DNA from: Methanomassiliicoccales archaeon LGM-DZ1
GTDB lineage: Archaea > Thermoplasmatota > Thermoplasmata > Methanomassiliicoccales > Methanomethylophilaceae
Direction: 5' to 3'
Assembly (NCBI GenBank): GCA_030168595.1
Contig: CP115556.1
Span: forward strand, 682,001-746,000
DNA: 64,000 nt
In this document: piece by piece, positions 39,568-48,244 of the stretch
Layout: every line of letters starts with the position of its first letter
How positions within the stretch are numbered: the stretch's first letter is position 1
Notes under the pieces: model-generated
The model's input: the letters and a program-made list of their open reading frames with translations, nothing else
Database searches by the model: none
Told to the model about the DNA's origin: nothing
Program-made: the position numbers and the translations under genes

Positions 39568-40088
39568 ACGGCGACGACCCGAACGCGCACCTCTTCGGGG
39601 ACGATTTCCCCGAGGAAGGTTCTGAGAAGGCGGATGAGGCCCAGGAGTTCGTCTACGGGAAAAACGGGAACAGGGTCAGCGCGATGAACGACCTCTGGTT
39701 CGAGAACCTGTCGAAGCAGGTGGAGGCCATGGAACTCCCCGACACCAAGGCGAAGATGCAGATGGTGTTCAAGCTGACCGCGCAGGCGGTCCTCGACATG
39801 TTCGCCGACTCCCAGCCTCCGGAATCCGCGCCTGACACGTTCTCGGACTTCGACATCTTCATGGGCGTGGCGCTCACGAACATGGAGTACGGGGTCAACC
39901 TGTTCGCGGAGCAGCAGAAGGCCCTGCAGGCGGTTGACCCCTCCAAGTTCAAGGACGACGAGGAGTACACCCGCGCGCTGTCGGACCTCGAGGACGCCTG
40001 GTGGGACATCCCGCAGCCTCTCCTGGGCGGCAGGAACCCCAACGACGCGATAAAAGAGACCCTCGCCAAGTACGGGCTGAACCGATGA
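39564..40088 (+). CDS. small acidic protein of unknown function upstream of mevalonate kinase
   Basis: 174 residues, acidic and mainly helical, without cysteine or membrane segments. Elements such as VSAMNDLWFENLSKQVEAME and FDIFMGVALTNMEYG do not match a family I know. The start overlaps the aminotransferase stop (ATGA) and the stop overlaps the mvk start, so it lies in the middle of a coupled three-gene operon, which argues that it is real and expressed. Confidence 0.75.
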   Translation: MNGDDPNAHLFGDDFPEEGSEKADEAQEFVYGKNGNRVSAMNDLWFENLSKQVEAMELPDTKAKMQMVFKLTAQAVLDMFADSQPPESAPDTFSDFDIFMGVALTNMEYGVNLFAEQQKALQAVDPSKFKDDEEYTRALSDLEDAWWDIPQPLLGGRNPNDAIKETLAKYGLNR

Positions 40089-41098
40089 CGTACGTTTCGG
40101 CTTCGGCCCCCGGGAAGTTCGTCATCCTGGGGGAGCATTCGGTCGTCTACGGCAAGCCTGCGATATCCGTCGCCATGAACATGCGCTTCAGCATCCGCGT
40201 CAAGAGGAGCGACAGGTACATGGTCAACAACCAGCCGGCGGCGCCCTACAACATGAGCCCCCACATGAGGTACATCTCGGACAAGATAGGGACTTCCCCA
40301 GTGTCGATCTACGTCGACGGCAGGGTGCCCTCGGGCTCCGGCCTAGGATCCTCGGCGGCGCTGTCCAACGCCTACGCGGCGGCTATCAGCTGCCTGGAGG
40401 GGCTGCCCACCGACGAGGAGTCCATAGCCAGGCTCGCCTATGAGGCGGAGTACGCCGCGCAGGGCAGGGGCAGCCCGATGGACACCTCGGCCTCCGCTCA
40501 CGGCCATGCGATAGCCCTCAACGTCCCCTACGACGATGAGGACTTCCTCTGGCACATCGACAACGGAGAGAGGTCCTGGGACATATCCAAGATAGACGTC
40601 CCCGAGATGCACTTCGTCATCGGCAACACCGGGATCAAAGCAGCCACCGGCCCCCTGGTGGAGAAGGTGAGGGAGTACACCGAGAGCAGCAGGTTCGCCT
40701 CGGAGATCATCGAGGAGCTCGGCGACGTCGCCCTGGACGGCATGAAGGCCATGAAGAACAACGACCTCGAGGAGCTCGGGGCCCTGATGACCTACGACCA
40801 CCGCCTGCTGTCGATCCTCGGGGTATCCTGCAACGAACTGAACCACATGGTCGATGCCGTCCTCCCGTACTCCTACGGCGCCAAGCTGACCGGCTCGGGC
40901 GGAGGAGGGTGCATGGTAGCGCTCACCGACCGTCCGGACAAGGTCTCCAAGGAGATCCGCGCCCACGGCGGCACGCCTTATATCGTCAAGACCGGTGTCC
41001 CCGGCATCACCGTGAAGATGCGGGAAGGGGACGGCAGGAACAGGCGCCGCTGGAGGCAGAAGAAGAAGGGCGCTCCGACCGGCAAAAGCAAAGAGTGA
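40085..41098 (+). CDS. mvk: mevalonate kinase
   Basis: 337 residues from the ATG at 40085. GHMP kinase: SASAPGKFVILGEHSVVYG at 5-23, ATP loop PSGSGLGSSAALSNA near 82-96, and LTGSGGGGCMVAL near 266-278. It phosphorylates mevalonate for the isoprenoid side chains of archaeal lipids. The last 30 residues are a basic tail (NRRRWRQKKKGAPTGKSKE), longer than usual. It converges on the lipid operon tes-ferredoxin-ggr and shares a terminator with it. Confidence 0.93.
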   Translation: MTYVSASAPGKFVILGEHSVVYGKPAISVAMNMRFSIRVKRSDRYMVNNQPAAPYNMSPHMRYISDKIGTSPVSIYVDGRVPSGSGLGSSAALSNAYAAAISCLEGLPTDEESIARLAYEAEYAAQGRGSPMDTSASAHGHAIALNVPYDDEDFLWHIDNGERSWDISKIDVPEMHFVIGNTGIKAATGPLVEKVREYTESSRFASEIIEELGDVALDGMKAMKNNDLEELGALMTYDHRLLSILGVSCNELNHMVDAVLPYSYGAKLTGSGGGGCMVALTDRPDKVSKEIRAHGGTPYIVKTGVPGITVKMREGDGRNRRRWRQKKKGAPTGKSKE

Positions 41099-41111
41099 GA
41101 AAGATACGGCC

Positions 41112-41147
41112 CCGGGGGGCCGGAAAAAAGGGGCCTTCCGGCCCCCG
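41112..41147. terminator. bidirectional terminator between mvk and ggr
   Basis: A long stem joins CCGGGGGGCCGGAA with TTCCGGCCCCCGG (one bulged G), with an A-rich loop containing six A. TATTTT follows on the plus strand. It lies between two convergent stop codons. Confidence 0.65.
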
Positions 41148-41153
41148 GTATTT

Positions 41154-42350
41154 TCAGATGAGGTCCTCGAACCCCTCGACGACCTTGGGGAACTTCTCCT
41201 TGATCGCCTTGAGAAGGTTCTCGACGTTGACATGCTCGATGTCGGCGTCCTTGATCAGCTTGACGACCTGGTTGATGGTCTCATCATCGAGCTCGGCGAG
41301 GCGCTCCTTGGCCATCCAGTCGCGGTAGAGGTTGTCCTCCATCCTGTCCCTGATCTTCTTGTCGTAGGGCTTCAGGGCGGCCGCGGAGTAATCTCCTTTC
41401 TTCTTGCACTCAGCGAGGACCTCTCCGGCGTACATCCCGGAGATGCAGGCATGGCCGATGCCGCCTCCCGTGATCGGGTCGATGAGCCTCGCGGAGTCTC
41501 CGACGAGCAGGACATTGTCAGCGGAGTAGCCTTTCTCCAGGCCGGGGCAAGTGGAATCGAACCCTCCGTCGATCTCGAGGATCTGGGCGTGCTTGAACCT
41601 GGGGTCCTCGGCGATGAACTTGTCGAGGAACTGCTTCGGGCGGACGCCGTTCTTGCAGAAGGTACCCATGATCCCGATGCCGACGTTGGCGACGCCGTCG
41701 CCCTTGGGGAAGATCCAGAGGTACCCTCCGGGAGCGACCTCGAGGCCGAGGCGGAACTCGCAGAACTCCATGCTGCAGTCGATCCCGGCCATCCTGTACT
41801 GGATGCACGGCTCGATGTCGTTCATCTTCAGGTTGGTATCGATGCCGCACCAGCGGCCGACCTGGGACTCCACGCCGTCAGCGCCGACGATGCAGTCGCA
41901 GTAAATGTCGAGAGGCTCGCCCATGGAGACGCAGTGCGCGCCGACGATCTTCCCGTCCTTCATTATGGGGCCGGTCATCCAGGTGCGCATCATGAGCTTA
42001 GCGCCCGCCTTGACGGCGAGCTTGGCGATGCCCTTGTCGAACAGGTGCCTCTCGAGGACGTATCCGACCTCGGCGCCGGCCTTGGTCTCATCCAGCTGGA
42101 ACGAGGTCCCGTCCGGGGAGACGATGACCGCGCCTTTCATGTCGGCGCGTATCCACTCGGGCTCGGGCTTGATCCCGATCTCGGCGAACATCTTCTTGGA
42201 AACACCCTCGGCGCACCTGAGGGGCGCGCCGATCTCGGCCTTCTTCTCGATGAGTATGGTGTCGATGCCCTTCTCGGCGCAGGATTTGGCCGCCATTCCT
42301 CCGGCGGGCCCCGCTCCGACGACAAGCACCTCGCATTTCAGCTCCTTCAT
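41154..42350 (-). CDS. geranylgeranyl reductase (digeranylgeranylglycerolipid reductase type)
   Basis: 398 residues from the ATG at 42350. FAD-binding GAGPAGGMAA at 12-21, LRCAEGVSKKMF near 44, and VLLVGDSARLIDPITGGGIGHA near 275-296 identify the GGR family. These flavoenzymes saturate the double bonds of archaeal isoprenoid lipids, often taking electrons from ferredoxin. A ferredoxin gene overlaps it directly upstream (ATGA), and the tetraether synthase gene precedes that. Confidence 0.92.
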   Translation of the reverse strand: MKELKCEVLVVGAGPAGGMAAKSCAEKGIDTILIEKKAEIGAPLRCAEGVSKKMFAEIGIKPEPEWIRADMKGAVIVSPDGTSFQLDETKAGAEVGYVLERHLFDKGIAKLAVKAGAKLMMRTWMTGPIMKDGKIVGAHCVSMGEPLDIYCDCIVGADGVESQVGRWCGIDTNLKMNDIEPCIQYRMAGIDCSMEFCEFRLGLEVAPGGYLWIFPKGDGVANVGIGIMGTFCKNGVRPKQFLDKFIAEDPRFKHAQILEIDGGFDSTCPGLEKGYSADNVLLVGDSARLIDPITGGGIGHACISGMYAGEVLAECKKKGDYSAAALKPYDKKIRDRMEDNLYRDWMAKERLAELDDETINQVVKLIKDADIEHVNVENLLKAIKEKFPKVVEGFEDLI

Positions 42351-42529
42351 TCCTTCGCCTCCATGGACAGGGCCCCGACAGGGCAGAGCCTGACGCAGCG
42401 GCCGCAGCGGTTGCAGGCATCGCTGAACGTCAGCACGTAATCGCAGAGGAAGATAGCGTTCTGGGGGCAGCATCCGACGCATCCCCCGCAGTGCAGGCAT
42501 TTGTTCGTATCAACCTTCATCCGATTCAC
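42347..42529 (-). CDS. two-cluster 4Fe-4S ferredoxin
   Basis: 60 residues with two complete CxxCxxCxxxC motifs: Cys11, 14, 17, 21 and Cys39, 42, 45, 49. An additional Cys20 and Cys29 are present. It overlaps both neighbours by four bases (ATGA), between tes and the geranylgeranyl reductase. It is therefore a likely dedicated electron donor for one or both lipid-modifying enzymes. The start could also be the ATG at 42520. Confidence 0.92.
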   Translation of the reverse strand: MNRMKVDTNKCLHCGGCVGCCPQNAIFLCDYVLTFSDACNRCGRCVRLCPVGALSMEAKE

Positions 42530-44169
42530 TCCTTGTTCTCAGCCGGGGCCTCGTCCGGGTCCTTGGGCACGATCAGCGCCTCGGCGAGCTGCTTGGCCTC
42601 CTCCTTGTGCTTCTCCTTCCACTCGGCCAGAGGAACGGAGAACTTCTTCTCGGTCTCCACGCGCATCTCGATCCCGCTGTTGTAGGCGCAGAACGGGATG
42701 ATCTTGCAGTCGGGAGTGACGTAGTGGATGGAGCACCTCCTTACCCTCTCGACATCGTAGTTGTAGGAGTCCTGGAAGTGCATGGCACCGACGTACATGG
42801 CCCCCCAGGAGAACTTGGCGAGGGCGGCCTTGGACTTCTTGCTCATGATGCTCACGAGGGCGTTGATGAGGTCGTTCTTGGTCATGCCCTCGGGCAGACC
42901 GGCCTCGTTGATGCAGTTGAGCAGGAGCTTCCTGACCTTCAGCACCGTGAGCTTCTTGAACGCCGCCGTCTCCGCCTTGTGCGATATCTCGTCCATGCCC
43001 TTCACGAACCTGTCGACATCGATCATCCTCGGCATGGGCATGACGTTGTCCTTGTCGTCGATGAAGAGGTAGGTCGCGAGCCCGCAGTGGGGGTGCGTCG
43101 GGAACGTGATCTTGTTCTGTCCCAGGATGATCGACGCGTAGTTCGAGATGCCGGCCACGGTGGGCACCGGGTACCAGTCGTCCATGGTGGTGAATCCAGT
43201 CTCGTCGTTGATCGCCTTGGCGACGTCGGTGAGGGTGATCCTGCCCTTGTCGACCTCCTCGTGGGTGACCCTTCCGGTGAACGCGACAGGCTGGTAGTTC
43301 ACTCCTCTGACGACCTCCCTGTGCTTGATGGCGAACTTCAGTATGTCCCCGATCTCGTCGTCGTTCAGGCCGCGGACGGTGGTGACGACGAGGACGATGG
43401 ACGGGCTGTGGCCGGTCTCCTCCCTCAGCTTCATGCAGTTGGCGATGACGCCCTCCTTGACCTTCATCATCCAGCGGCCGCGGGACCTCCTGTAGATGTC
43501 GTCGTTCAAGCCGTCGAACTGGAGGTAGATGGTGTTGAGCCCGGCCTGCGCGCAGGCCTTGAGCTTGTCGTAATGGTTGCAGAACTCGATGCCGTTGGTG
43601 GCGATCTGCACCTGGGCGAAGCCCCTCTCCTTGGCGGCCTTGATGACGTCGACCAGCCTGGGATAGACGGTGGGCTCTCCTCCGGAGAACTGGACCGCGG
43701 TGCATTTGATGGGCTCCTCGCTCCTGAGGGCGTCGAGCATCTTGCAGACGGTCTCGAAATCTGGCTCATACACATACCCGGCATCGTTCGCGTTGGCGAA
43801 GCAGATGGGGCATTTCATGTTGCACCTGTTGGTCAGGTCGATGTTGGCCAGGGCGGTGGGCGACATCATGTCGATGCGCTCCCCGTCGATGACGATGTGG
43901 ACGTTCTCGCCGTCCTTGAGCGACTTGTCCATAGGGTTCCTGAGCCCCGTGCCGTCCTTCGCGTATTTCTCGGCCTGCAGGTATTTCTTGGCGTCGGACC
44001 AGTAAAGGTCGCAGAAGTGGCCGTGCTCCGGGCAGTCCTTCTCCATATAGACCTTCCCGTCCTTTTCGAAAACATTGGCCTCGAGCAGTTTGCCGCACTC
44101 GGGGCATATGGACTGCGTCTTCTTCGGCAGTCCGACGGCCGCCGAATAGGGCTTCACAGTTGCGCTCAT
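42526..44169 (-). CDS. tes: radical SAM tetraether lipid synthase (Tes) homologue
   Basis: 547 residues. An N-terminal rubredoxin-like pair CPECGKLL (Cys22, Cys25) is followed by the radical SAM motif CNMKCPICFA near 114-123, a SGGEPTVYP motif near 164, and C-terminal cysteines in RRCSIHYVTPDCKIIPFCAYN near 495-515 that can bind extra clusters. This architecture matches Tes/GDGT-MAS, which couples two archaeol tails into a macrocyclic or tetraether lipid. The gene leads the tes-ferredoxin-ggr operon; a TATA-like TTTAATAATAAAC lies 15-30 bases before the ATG. Confidence 0.87.
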   Translation of the reverse strand: MSATVKPYSAAVGLPKKTQSICPECGKLLEANVFEKDGKVYMEKDCPEHGHFCDLYWSDAKKYLQAEKYAKDGTGLRNPMDKSLKDGENVHIVIDGERIDMMSPTALANIDLTNRCNMKCPICFANANDAGYVYEPDFETVCKMLDALRSEEPIKCTAVQFSGGEPTVYPRLVDVIKAAKERGFAQVQIATNGIEFCNHYDKLKACAQAGLNTIYLQFDGLNDDIYRRSRGRWMMKVKEGVIANCMKLREETGHSPSIVLVVTTVRGLNDDEIGDILKFAIKHREVVRGVNYQPVAFTGRVTHEEVDKGRITLTDVAKAINDETGFTTMDDWYPVPTVAGISNYASIILGQNKITFPTHPHCGLATYLFIDDKDNVMPMPRMIDVDRFVKGMDEISHKAETAAFKKLTVLKVRKLLLNCINEAGLPEGMTKNDLINALVSIMSKKSKAALAKFSWGAMYVGAMHFQDSYNYDVERVRRCSIHYVTPDCKIIPFCAYNSGIEMRVETEKKFSVPLAEWKEKHKEEAKQLAEALIVPKDPDEAPAENKE

Positions 44170-44308
44170 GACGGTTGCATTTGTTTATTATTAAATAATA
44201 TTCTCCGTCGATTCGGCACGGGGCGCTCCCCTGCCAGAGGGATAATGCGGCAGTTGCCCCTGACTGCAGTGCGCCCGCTTATTATCCCCGGAGGGCGAAA
44301 CGCCTGCC

Positions 44309-47300
44309 ATGAAAGGGACAGCGATACGGGGGGACCGCAGGGGAGGCATGCCGTTCGCCCTGGCGGCGGTGGCGATCCTCCTGTCGGTCACCGCATACGG
44401 AGCGGTGCAGGCGGAGATCGAGGGAGCCAGGGACGGGGCGGAGGACTCCTGGAGGTCGGTGAAGGCGATAGATTCGGCGGCCGACGGCATAACGGCGTTC
44501 ATAGAGCAGGGGATGGGGGAGAACGTACGGTCGGTGAGCCTCGATCCGGACGCCGGCGGGCTGGACGGCCGCCGCGCCGAGTTCTCCGAACGGATGGAGC
44601 GGTGGATGGGGTCCATGTTCCCGGCCGAGGACTCAGGCGTCCTCGTGAAGCTGAAAGGATGGACTGCGGAGCTGAACGTGGAGGACCTGAGGACCCAGGA
44701 GGGCCTGTACGCCGCGGACGGCTACACGCCCGCGTACCTCTACGCCGCCGGGACCGCTGACCTGACCTTCGAATCCGACTCCGGGAAAGCGCATCGGACG
44801 GTGGAGCTGAGGGCGGACGGAAGCTGCGCCCTGCCCCTCGCCATCGAGCGCGGGACGCTGTTCGAGAGCCTGCTCGAAGGCAACGGATCGATGATGTCCC
44901 AGATGATGCAGTACCAGCTGTCCTCCCTCGCTCAGTCGAGGATCATGAGCGGATACGGGGCATACGTGTCCGGAGAGAAGGGGACGGATTCTGTCATCAC
45001 CGCCGAGGACGTGAAGGAGGCGTACAGCACCGTTCTCCGCGCAGCCGAGAGCATCGTCTTCAGGGACGCGGACGGGGAGATCGTCGGAGGCACGCGCGAC
45101 ATCGGGATGGACCTGGTCAGGAGCAGGGGAGGGCTGACCGTGGACCTCTCCGGCATGTACTCGCAGATAGCCTCTGCATCGATGGACAGGCTGATCGGGA
45201 AATGGTTCGACTACTTCCTCGGGTCGGAGATCATCAGCGCCCTCGACGGCGTCGCAGATACCCTGGCCGATGCCTGGGACTCCCTGGTCTCCTTCCTGAC
45301 GAACAAGAAGACCGACTACTCGGCCGCTCCTTATATCAAAGAGGTCACCGGGAGGTCGGACTTCTCGGTGCGGGGATCGTTCGAGCTCCGCGTCCCGTCC
45401 CCGGCCGAGAACATGGGGGAGGTAAGCATCACGGTGCCCTACCCGGAGGCGGACCTGCTGCATTACGGGACCGTGGACCATTTCAAGAAGACCTACCGCG
45501 CGGACACAGACGGGCTCATGGAATGGATCACCAGCGTAGCGAACGGCGCGCTGGCACAGATAGCCGAAGCGCAATCGATGGGGACCGCCGCGATACAGGA
45601 CAGGGGGAGCTTCGCCGATTCGGTGAGGGCGTTCGCGGAGGAGAACGCCTCCAGGTGCGACGCCGACTTCCTGAAGATACTCACCGCCCAGGTCCGCGCC
45701 GAAGGATACCCGGACCCGTTCTACACGGCGATATACAGGACCATCGAGGAGAACAGGGCCGACATCTGGACCACGGACCCGGAGGCGATCCTCCGGGACC
45801 GCCTGCCGGAGATCCGCGGCCTGCTGGTGTCCGCCTATTCCGAAGCGGGAGCGGACAGTGCCCTGGCGGAGAGCTACGCCGATGCCGGGATCGCCTCGCT
45901 CACGACCGCCGCCTGGAACCTGGCACAGTTCAGGGAGTACTCCGACAAGGTCGATGCCGAGGTCGCCGGGCTGTCGGCCCTCTGCGAAGTGGAGAAGAAG
46001 AGCAGCGCGATAATCCAGAAGGGCTGCGCCAAGATCCTCAGGCTCCCGCTGATAGCGACTTCGTTCGATACCGAGAAGCGCTTCGCCGAGCTGGCAGAGG
46101 AGTTCGCCCAATCCGTCGGCGCCGATCCTTTCGAAGGGCTGCGCGAGTATGGGAAGGAAGGGACGTTCGAGCTCCTGGGAGATGCCTCGAGCTTCGAGAA
46201 GCTCACCGTGGAGACGGATTCCCGCCCTTCGGTCTCGATCGCTAGGAACAGCGGGTCCAGCTCCCACTGCACCGACCTCTGCACTTTCGGGGCGGATTTC
46301 TGCTCGGTGTTCTCCGTGGAGGTGAATGATACCGTCACCTACAGCGTGACCGGGAGCGGCCCGCTCCAGAGCAGGCTCGGGACGGGCAACTGCGTCTTCA
46401 GGGCCTCGGTCCCGGTCAGCCTGAAAGCGGACGTGCCGGTGGTCTCCGGATGGCCCCTGAGCGGTTTCGAATACTCCGCAACCGACACCATAACAGAGGA
46501 TGCCTGGAAGAAACTGGCAGAGTGGGCGGGAGAGCTGGCCGACCCGCTCATCAGCTACCTGCGCACAGTTGGCGAGCTCGGAGAGAGGCTGGCCGGTGCC
46601 GTCATGGAGATCGTGCGGGATTCCGGCATAGTCCGGGAGATCTACGAGCTCATCGGCTCCCGCACTGAGATGCTCGGCGAGGCGGTGGAGAAGATCCTCA
46701 ACGATTCGGCCGGGAAGGTTCTGGAGTCTCTGACCGGAGAGGTGCAGGAGATCATCGACATCAAGGCCAGCAGCCAGACCGTCGGGATCGGCTACATGGG
46801 ATGGAAGCTTACCTTCACGGTCTACGCCAAGAACATCGACAAGAGCTCCAAGGACCTGCTGAAGATCGGCGCCGAAGGCACCCTCGGGGGCTCCCCGATG
46901 AAGGCCTGGCTCACAGTGTCCCAGAACAGCAGCGGGTACAAGGTGCACGGGGGCTTCGGGTACACCGGCGACGGCTGGGGGATAAGCGGGACCTTCAACC
47001 CTTCGATGTACAGATCGGACCGCATCCTGACCGTCGACGGTCATTACGGGGACACAGAGGTGAGCATCTCCTTCCCGGAGGTCCAGGAATACCGGCGGAT
47101 CGATGTCCGCCTTTCCGACATCCCCGGCATGGGCACCGTGCTCTCCAACCTCCCGTCCCCAGTTCCCGGCACCCTGATATCGGTGGACGCGGGCGCGGAG
47201 CTGAAGTACAATGTCCCGATGGAAGAGGGCCTTCTGATAAACGAGGCCGAATCCAACCCTGCGGGGGAGGACAAGGGCTCGGAATGGGTCGAGCTGCTGA

Positions 47301-48244
47301 ATTTCTCCAGGTCGGAGATCAGCCTCGACGGCATGTCGCTGAGGAACTCCCGCGGCGCAACATGGGGGCTGAGCGGCACGATCGGGCCCATGGAGCACAA
47401 GGTCGTGACGTTCCCCGTAGCATTCCTGAACAACAGCGGCGAAAAGCTCGAGCTGCTGGCCGCCGACGGGTCCGAGATCGGCCATACGCCGAAGTTCAGC
47501 GACAGCGCCAACGACAGCACGACGTACCAGAGGACGGTCGACGGGTGCACCCAGTGGAAACGCGGGGAAGGCAGCCCCGGCGAGAAGAACTCGGGGCTCT
47601 TCGATGCCGACGGTTACCTGCTCTCTTCGGCCAAGGACATTGTCAAGGATGCCGCGCTGGAGGCGATCGACGAAGCAGGGCACGTGACGGACATGGACGG
47701 CCTCAGCCTGCTCTGCAAGAAGATAACCCAGAAGGTGATGGACAAGGTAGCGGAGGACATATCGGGGATGATCGTCGGCGCCCGCCTGTTCGCGGAGTGC
47801 CGCCTGCATGATGCGTCCGGAACGGCATGCACCGGGTTCCAGGCGTACATCGAGGTCGACCGCGGCACCGCCTCCGATGCCCTGAAGCTCCTGATGGGGC
47901 GCGCCGCCGAGCTGTTGCTGCACATCGACGACCCGTACAAGGTCAGCATCGCCGATGTGGCGCTCGGGGACGTGTACATCGGCGCGGAGGCGTTCGCCGG
48001 GATCGGGGTGCCGAAGTTCATCGACATGAGCGGGTCCCCCGAGACCAGCGCATCCATCGACGTCAACGTCAACGCGGAGGCCGTCTCGAACCTGCTGGGA
48101 CATGACAGCGGAGCGAAGTGGAAGGTCAACGCCGGCATCGTGGTCCGCGACTGCCCGGCGTCCGCCGTCTCGTTCGGCAGCAAGTACGACAGCAGCATGA
48201 AGCACGACCTCTGGCTCATGCGCATGACCGTCTCCGGGAAGTGA
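44309..48244 (+). CDS. large surface-type protein with lamin-tail domain
   Basis: 1311 residues. The N-terminus has a positively charged stretch then a single hydrophobic segment (MPFALAAVAILLSVTAYGA, about 14-32), reminiscent of pilin-like or anchor sequences in archaeal secretion-associated proteins. A long helical ectodomain-like region follows. Residues about 974-1094 form a lamin-tail domain (LLINEAESNPAGED, SEWVELLNFSRSEISL, GTIGPMEHKVVTFP). The C-terminal 200 residues are beta-rich. I found no catalytic motif. It probably sits on the outer face of the membrane or in the cell envelope. It stands alone, divergent from tes, and has its own short promoter space. Function is unknown. Confidence 0.85.
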   Translation: MKGTAIRGDRRGGMPFALAAVAILLSVTAYGAVQAEIEGARDGAEDSWRSVKAIDSAADGITAFIEQGMGENVRSVSLDPDAGGLDGRRAEFSERMERWMGSMFPAEDSGVLVKLKGWTAELNVEDLRTQEGLYAADGYTPAYLYAAGTADLTFESDSGKAHRTVELRADGSCALPLAIERGTLFESLLEGNGSMMSQMMQYQLSSLAQSRIMSGYGAYVSGEKGTDSVITAEDVKEAYSTVLRAAESIVFRDADGEIVGGTRDIGMDLVRSRGGLTVDLSGMYSQIASASMDRLIGKWFDYFLGSEIISALDGVADTLADAWDSLVSFLTNKKTDYSAAPYIKEVTGRSDFSVRGSFELRVPSPAENMGEVSITVPYPEADLLHYGTVDHFKKTYRADTDGLMEWITSVANGALAQIAEAQSMGTAAIQDRGSFADSVRAFAEENASRCDADFLKILTAQVRAEGYPDPFYTAIYRTIEENRADIWTTDPEAILRDRLPEIRGLLVSAYSEAGADSALAESYADAGIASLTTAAWNLAQFREYSDKVDAEVAGLSALCEVEKKSSAIIQKGCAKILRLPLIATSFDTEKRFAELAEEFAQSVGADPFEGLREYGKEGTFELLGDASSFEKLTVETDSRPSVSIARNSGSSSHCTDLCTFGADFCSVFSVEVNDTVTYSVTGSGPLQSRLGTGNCVFRASVPVSLKADVPVVSGWPLSGFEYSATDTITEDAWKKLAEWAGELADPLISYLRTVGELGERLAGAVMEIVRDSGIVREIYELIGSRTEMLGEAVEKILNDSAGKVLESLTGEVQEIIDIKASSQTVGIGYMGWKLTFTVYAKNIDKSSKDLLKIGAEGTLGGSPMKAWLTVSQNSSGYKVHGGFGYTGDGWGISGTFNPSMYRSDRILTVDGHYGDTEVSISFPEVQEYRRIDVRLSDIPGMGTVLSNLPSPVPGTLISVDAGAELKYNVPMEEGLLINEAESNPAGEDKGSEWVELLNFSRSEISLDGMSLRNSRGATWGLSGTIGPMEHKVVTFPVAFLNNSGEKLELLAADGSEIGHTPKFSDSANDSTTYQRTVDGCTQWKRGEGSPGEKNSGLFDADGYLLSSAKDIVKDAALEAIDEAGHVTDMDGLSLLCKKITQKVMDKVAEDISGMIVGARLFAECRLHDASGTACTGFQAYIEVDRGTASDALKLLMGRAAELLLHIDDPYKVSIADVALGDVYIGAEAFAGIGVPKFIDMSGSPETSASIDVNVNAEAVSNLLGHDSGAKWKVNAGIVVRDCPASAVSFGSKYDSSMKHDLWLMRMTVSGK

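Follow-up and report, generated by a model that had tools for sequence, protein, structure and literature searches.

Organization of the locus

The window, which is the whole stretch of 64,000 nt analysed here, sits within a complete 1.77 Mb genome and carries on its minus strand three lipid genes arranged head to tail. The first encodes Tes (tetraether lipid synthase, 42526..44169, minus strand), a radical SAM protein of 547 residues in which the N-terminal auxiliary cluster site is missing. It is followed by a 57-residue 2[4Fe-4S] ferredoxin (42347..42520, minus strand), which contains two CxxCxxCxxxCP motifs, matches Pfam Fer4 and is a probable electron donor to the product of the gene that it precedes, the digeranylgeranylglycerophospholipid reductase (GGR, 398 residues, 41154..42350, minus strand). 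The trio itself is not new, as Tes, ferredoxin and GGR lie side by side in the same way in Methanosarcina acetivorans (MA_1486-MA_1485-MA_1484), where Zeng 2022 found Tes through the neighbourhood of MA_1486 next to MA_1485 and MA_1484 (PMC8941075).

The first-pass annotation had described this trio as converging with a mevalonate kinase gene, with four-base overlaps at both of its junctions and a two-cluster ferredoxin of 60 residues. The trio, the convergent kinase and the two clusters are borne out, but the overlap (ATGA, 42347-42350) occurs only between the ferredoxin and GGR genes, whereas Tes and the ferredoxin gene are separated by 5 bases when translation begins at ATG 42520. A length of 60 residues would require a GTG start at 42529, which we rejected based on Shine-Dalgarno spacing and the start sites in relatives. 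The ATG at 42520 is most likely the true start; it is preceded by an AGGAG eight bases upstream and coincides with the protein starts in relatives, across which the spacing between Tes and the ferredoxin gene ranges from a slight overlap to about 120 bases.

Upstream of Tes, at a distance of 15-40 bases, an A+T-rich stretch (44183..44210, minus strand) reads as a candidate TATA box and would be the single likely promoter of the trio; as there is no room for a promoter inside the trio, the three genes are probably transcribed together. A 1311-residue ORF (44309-48244, plus strand) diverges from Tes. The interval between the GGR and mevalonate kinase genes holds G+C-rich inverted repeats (41107..41146), a possible bidirectional terminator whose predicted fold is not exceptional as compared to shuffled sequences (z -1.65). 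The mevalonate kinase gene (40085..41098, plus strand; TIGR00549 190 bits, over the cut-off) clusters with an aminotransferase gene and a small gene of unknown function on the strand opposite the trio, and it converges on the trio in almost every Methanomassiliicoccales locus that has enough flanking sequence, at times with inserted genes. The suggestion that precursor supply belongs to the same locus thus holds only weakly: the kinase is a neighbour conserved across the order, but its opposite orientation means that it is transcribed separately and places it outside the operon.

Family assignment of Tes and GGR

The naming of the radical SAM protein as Tes agrees with its family-model score, its closest match of known structure and its predicted fold. 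It passes the curated NCBIfam equivalog model NF045702 (568 bits, cut-off 450), its best PDB sequence match is 7tol (E 1e-132), and its predicted structure (mean pLDDT 89) best matches the GDGT-MAS structure 7tom, with TM scores of 0.84/0.92. The protein is 100% identical to the Tes of Candidatus Methanomethylophilus sp. 1R26, which makes the host a Methanomethylophilaceae member of the Methanomethylophilus type (order Methanomassiliicoccales). Tes was found in 117 of 120 Methanomassiliicoccales genomes, including all 73 of good quality. One Methanomethylophilaceae member (G033) encodes a second full-length Tes (L113) without an adjoining ferredoxin or GGR gene. Tes homologues also occur in Planctomycetota bins (L052, L063), where they are tree neighbours of Methanomassiliicoccales Tes and could reflect either transfer or bin contamination.

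The name geranylgeranyl reductase likewise holds. GGR scores 210 bits against TIGR02032, above its cut-off, matches the Pfam GGR_cat domain, and aligns over its full length with PDB entry 3oz2 (E 1e-100), retaining RCAEG and the segment GGYLWIFPKG with its YxWxFP motif. It falls below the cut-off of the equivalog NF041160 (378 as compared to 780 bits), a model tuned to Thermoplasmatales. Entry 3OZ2, the Thermoplasma acidophilum enzyme, is also its best full-length PDB match. Two more members of the GG-reductase family are encoded elsewhere in the genome (L147 and L148; contig positions 1213721-1214539 and 1240274-1241131), without an adjoining ferredoxin gene.

Three of the four metal sites of Tes are retained

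The solved Tes, MJ0619 (GDGT-MAS) of Methanocaldococcus jannaschii (7TOL, 7TOM), carries four metal cofactors (PMC9433317), and the Tes of this genome shares its fold and the residues of three of these sites. The rubredoxin-like iron site, formed by C9/C12/C33/H36 in MJ0619 (PMC9433317), is kept with the same spacing as a CX2CX20CX2H motif at residues 22-49 (C22, C25, C46 and H49; 44023..44106, minus strand). The radical SAM motif CX3CX2C reads CNMKCPIC at residues 116-123 (43801..43824, minus strand). In the region of the C-terminal auxiliary cluster (42688..43086, minus strand), C362, M463, C479 and C494 are all kept and align with C338, M439, C455 and C470 of MJ0619, and Y483 is present opposite Tyr459; the three cysteines would act as cluster ligands. 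Met439, Tyr459 and the residues of the C-terminal cluster have been reported as fully conserved in Tes. Of the 67 aligned Methanomethylophilaceae rows, 66-67 retain the rubredoxin-like site, the radical SAM motif, Gln268 and the C-terminal cysteines, together with Met439 and Tyr459.

The fourth site differs. In MJ0619, the N-terminal auxiliary cluster ([Fe4S4]N) is bound by C73, C77 and C80 together with a histidine, and its role has only been guessed at, with tuning and electron transfer proposed (PMC9433317). The segment of our Tes that lies opposite the CPxxCGxCxxH motif of MJ0619 spans residues 87-103 (43861..43911, minus strand) and reads GENVHIVIDGERIDMMS. In the PDB alignment, the MJ0619 sequence CPYDCGLCPNH is paired with KDGENVHIVIDGERIDMMS, such that all three [Fe4S4]N cysteines are absent while the other metal sites remain. 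Where MJ0619 holds the cluster, the segment is predicted to form a β-hairpin (residues 91-100, segment pLDDT about 94). Because these ligands are absent, we class this Tes as a variant, using a site that is a trait of the solved MJ0619 structure and not an established requirement for activity.

The ligand loss extends to the whole family. An intact N-terminal site was found in none of 64 distinct Methanomethylophilaceae Tes sequences, as compared to 155 of about 164 sequences elsewhere; 59 of the family sequences have no aligned N-site cysteine and 5 have one. The hairpin that replaces the site is itself conserved in Methanomethylophilaceae, and no substitute cysteines for the cluster are conserved across the family's Tes sequences. 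In four basal members of the family (L318, L320-L322), a CX4C pair persists at this position, perhaps as a vestige of the lost site. Outside Methanomethylophilaceae, the site is gone in six sequences (L123, L124, L132-L134 and L339), and two of its three cysteines are present in three others (L138-L140). The latter (f12/f35) are divergent Tes-like proteins that score under the curated cut-off, do not contain the rubredoxin-like cysteines, and fall one N-site cysteine short.

In a tree of 72 sequences, well supported branches force three changes, placing losses of the site on the stem that unites Methanomethylophilaceae with family f4, in family f8 and on one branch of family f23. The loss is read as the derived state because the sister family TrsS keeps the motif. 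TrsS radical SAM (seleno)proteins (NF045646) share the N-terminal layout of Tes, including CPxxCGxCxxH, but they differ in the C-terminal half and form a separate family that occurs in some Tes-bearing genomes and is absent from this one. TrsS-family proteins are encoded in many Methanomassiliicoccales (e.g. L340:2117-3478 and L341:1649-3019, both minus strand), where they match the Tes model over its first two thirds with about 345 bits; the second Tes-like matches in many genomes of the order are these proteins and not duplicate Tes.

The new point, which the first-pass annotation did not include, is a Tes variant found throughout the family in which, as read from its sequence, one of the four cofactor sites is gone. 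The cluster itself is presumably absent as well, which would leave a Tes with three metallocofactors instead of four.

The ferredoxin travels with GGR

The order of the trio is conserved beyond chance. Among loci with enough flanking DNA, some of them retrieved repeatedly from the same genome, Tes is followed by GGR in 57 of 58 Methanomethylophilaceae loci and in all 41 loci from other Methanomassiliicoccales, with the ferredoxin gene nearly always between them. The single exception is the additional Tes of G033 (L113).

Loci that have Tes and GGR at separate places reveal which of the two is the partner of the ferredoxin. In 65 of 66 such loci, GGR is immediately preceded by a dicluster ferredoxin gene. 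This same-strand arrangement is seen across phyla, in 20 of 20 loci from other Thermoplasmatota and in 45 of 46 loci from the phylum of genome G247. In contrast, none of 116 lone Tes genes has a dicluster ferredoxin gene within 1 kb. Small dicluster ORFs are rare in the remainder of this DNA, with 16 in 2.43 Mb. As some loci come from the same genome more than once and GGR loci were picked by score, the counts in this section do not represent an unbiased census. The contrast between 65 of 66 GGR loci and 0 of 116 lone Tes genes indicates that the ferredoxin pairs with GGR. It agrees with the finding that the M. acetivorans GGR requires the homologous ferredoxin in E. coli (Isobe 2014, via PMC4244643 and PMC8941075). 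Ferredoxin support of GGR activity is demonstrated there for the M. acetivorans pair only (PMC4244643). Conservation of the ferredoxin gene upstream of GGR was left unanalysed in 2014 (PMC4244643), and a 2024 review describes ferredoxins encoded close to several GGR genes of archaea (PMC10821996). The comparative loci settle that the travelling partner is GGR, a point open since 2014.

As a small 2[4Fe-4S] protein encoded directly upstream of GGR, the ferredoxin of this genome is of the MA_1485 type, and by analogy with the M. acetivorans pair it would reduce the adjacent GGR. The genome also encodes several other small ferredoxin-like proteins, which might serve GGR or Tes. The idea that the ferredoxin feeds both of the last two steps of the pathway is well supported for GGR, given the 65 of 66 loci and the requirement seen for the M. 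acetivorans homologue, but unsupported for Tes, which is tied to the ferredoxin by adjacency; as a dedicated Tes donor, the ferredoxin was rejected as unsupported on the count of 0 in 116.

Two further comparisons place the locus. Methanosarcina-like loci (L280, L281) have the same gene order, but with a gap of several hundred bases between Tes and the ferredoxin gene and with the N-terminal site kept, whereas here the genes abut and the site is gone. The Thermoplasmatales-type genomes sampled also have the ferredoxin gene upstream of GGR, but their Tes lies elsewhere in the genome, whereas here it adjoins the ferredoxin gene.

Discussion

We read the trio as an operon with which a gut methanogen of the Methanomethylophilus type finishes its lipids, the ferredoxin being the partner of GGR and Tes functioning with three predicted cofactors; to this reading we assign a probability of about 0.78. 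In this pathway, GGR would saturate the geranylgeranyl chains, drawing electrons from the ferredoxin of the preceding gene, and Tes would then couple the saturated chains tail to tail. As in MJ0619, the first radical would be stored on the C-terminal cluster, which would hold the lipid intermediate. The ferredoxin would be an ancient partner of GGR, and Tes a neighbour acquired later, in Thermoplasmatota and certain Methanosarcina-like genomes. A hairpin would have taken the place of the surface [Fe4S4]N site, with the rubredoxin-like iron and both the radical SAM and the C-terminal clusters retained. Since [Fe4S4]N is missing, electrons would enter Tes by another way, probably reaching the radical SAM cluster via the rubredoxin-like iron or directly. 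The Tes of this genome is presumably active. Methanomassiliicoccus luminyensis, a member of the same order, makes tetraethers according to work cited in PMC10673518, and the papers searched contained no lipid analysis of Methanomethylophilaceae.

Other explanations of the same data must be weighed. The ferredoxin could reduce both GGR and Tes, in which case the loss of [Fe4S4]N would reflect a ferredoxin that docks directly on Tes; the tight gene order kept throughout Methanomassiliicoccales is compatible with such sharing, as is the presence of the trio in Methanomethylophilaceae with f4 and in f8, two of the three losing lineages. However, loss of the site and presence of the trio are not correlated, as other trio families keep the site and the third losing lineage (L132-L134) lost it without having the trio. 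Together with the ferredoxin staying with GGR and away from lone Tes genes, this makes a shared donor unlikely.

A changed function is somewhat less probable still. The family's Tes might couple other chains, make only macrocyclic archaeol, or be decaying, and it has both lost a metal site and lower scores against the Tes model, about 545-616 bits as compared to 650-693 in sister families. These scores nevertheless lie above the curated cut-off, the catalytic and C-terminal cluster residues are all kept, and every complete genome sampled retains a single Tes copy; conservation of the replacing hairpin also argues against decay. We consider it very improbable that faulty alignment or annotation explains the missing cysteines, or that other residues hold the cluster. 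The few other cysteines in family members and the CX4C pair of four basal sequences would fit the latter, but none is conserved as a replacement across the family, the segment is flanked by ungapped anchors and confidently modelled, and 64 independent sequences agree.

Within the favoured reading of a GGR-partnered ferredoxin beside a three-cofactor Tes, a bolder proposal is that Tes without [Fe4S4]N is fully active and the cluster dispensable, the hairpin swap having occurred in three lineages or more, of which two have Tes next to the GGR ferredoxin gene, with the electron route re-wired. We hold this proposal tentatively, at slightly less than even odds. Tes couples two unactivated sp3 carbons, and the GDGT lipids that serve as climate proxies depend on it. 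Gut archaea here offer a ready natural experiment, as an entire family lacks exactly the N-terminal site while keeping every other one and the loss recurs in two further lineages. A natural three-cofactor Tes, as predicted here, makes the role of [Fe4S4]N testable. Should the bolder proposal hold, one of the four metallocofactors would be dispensable for joining inert carbon chains.
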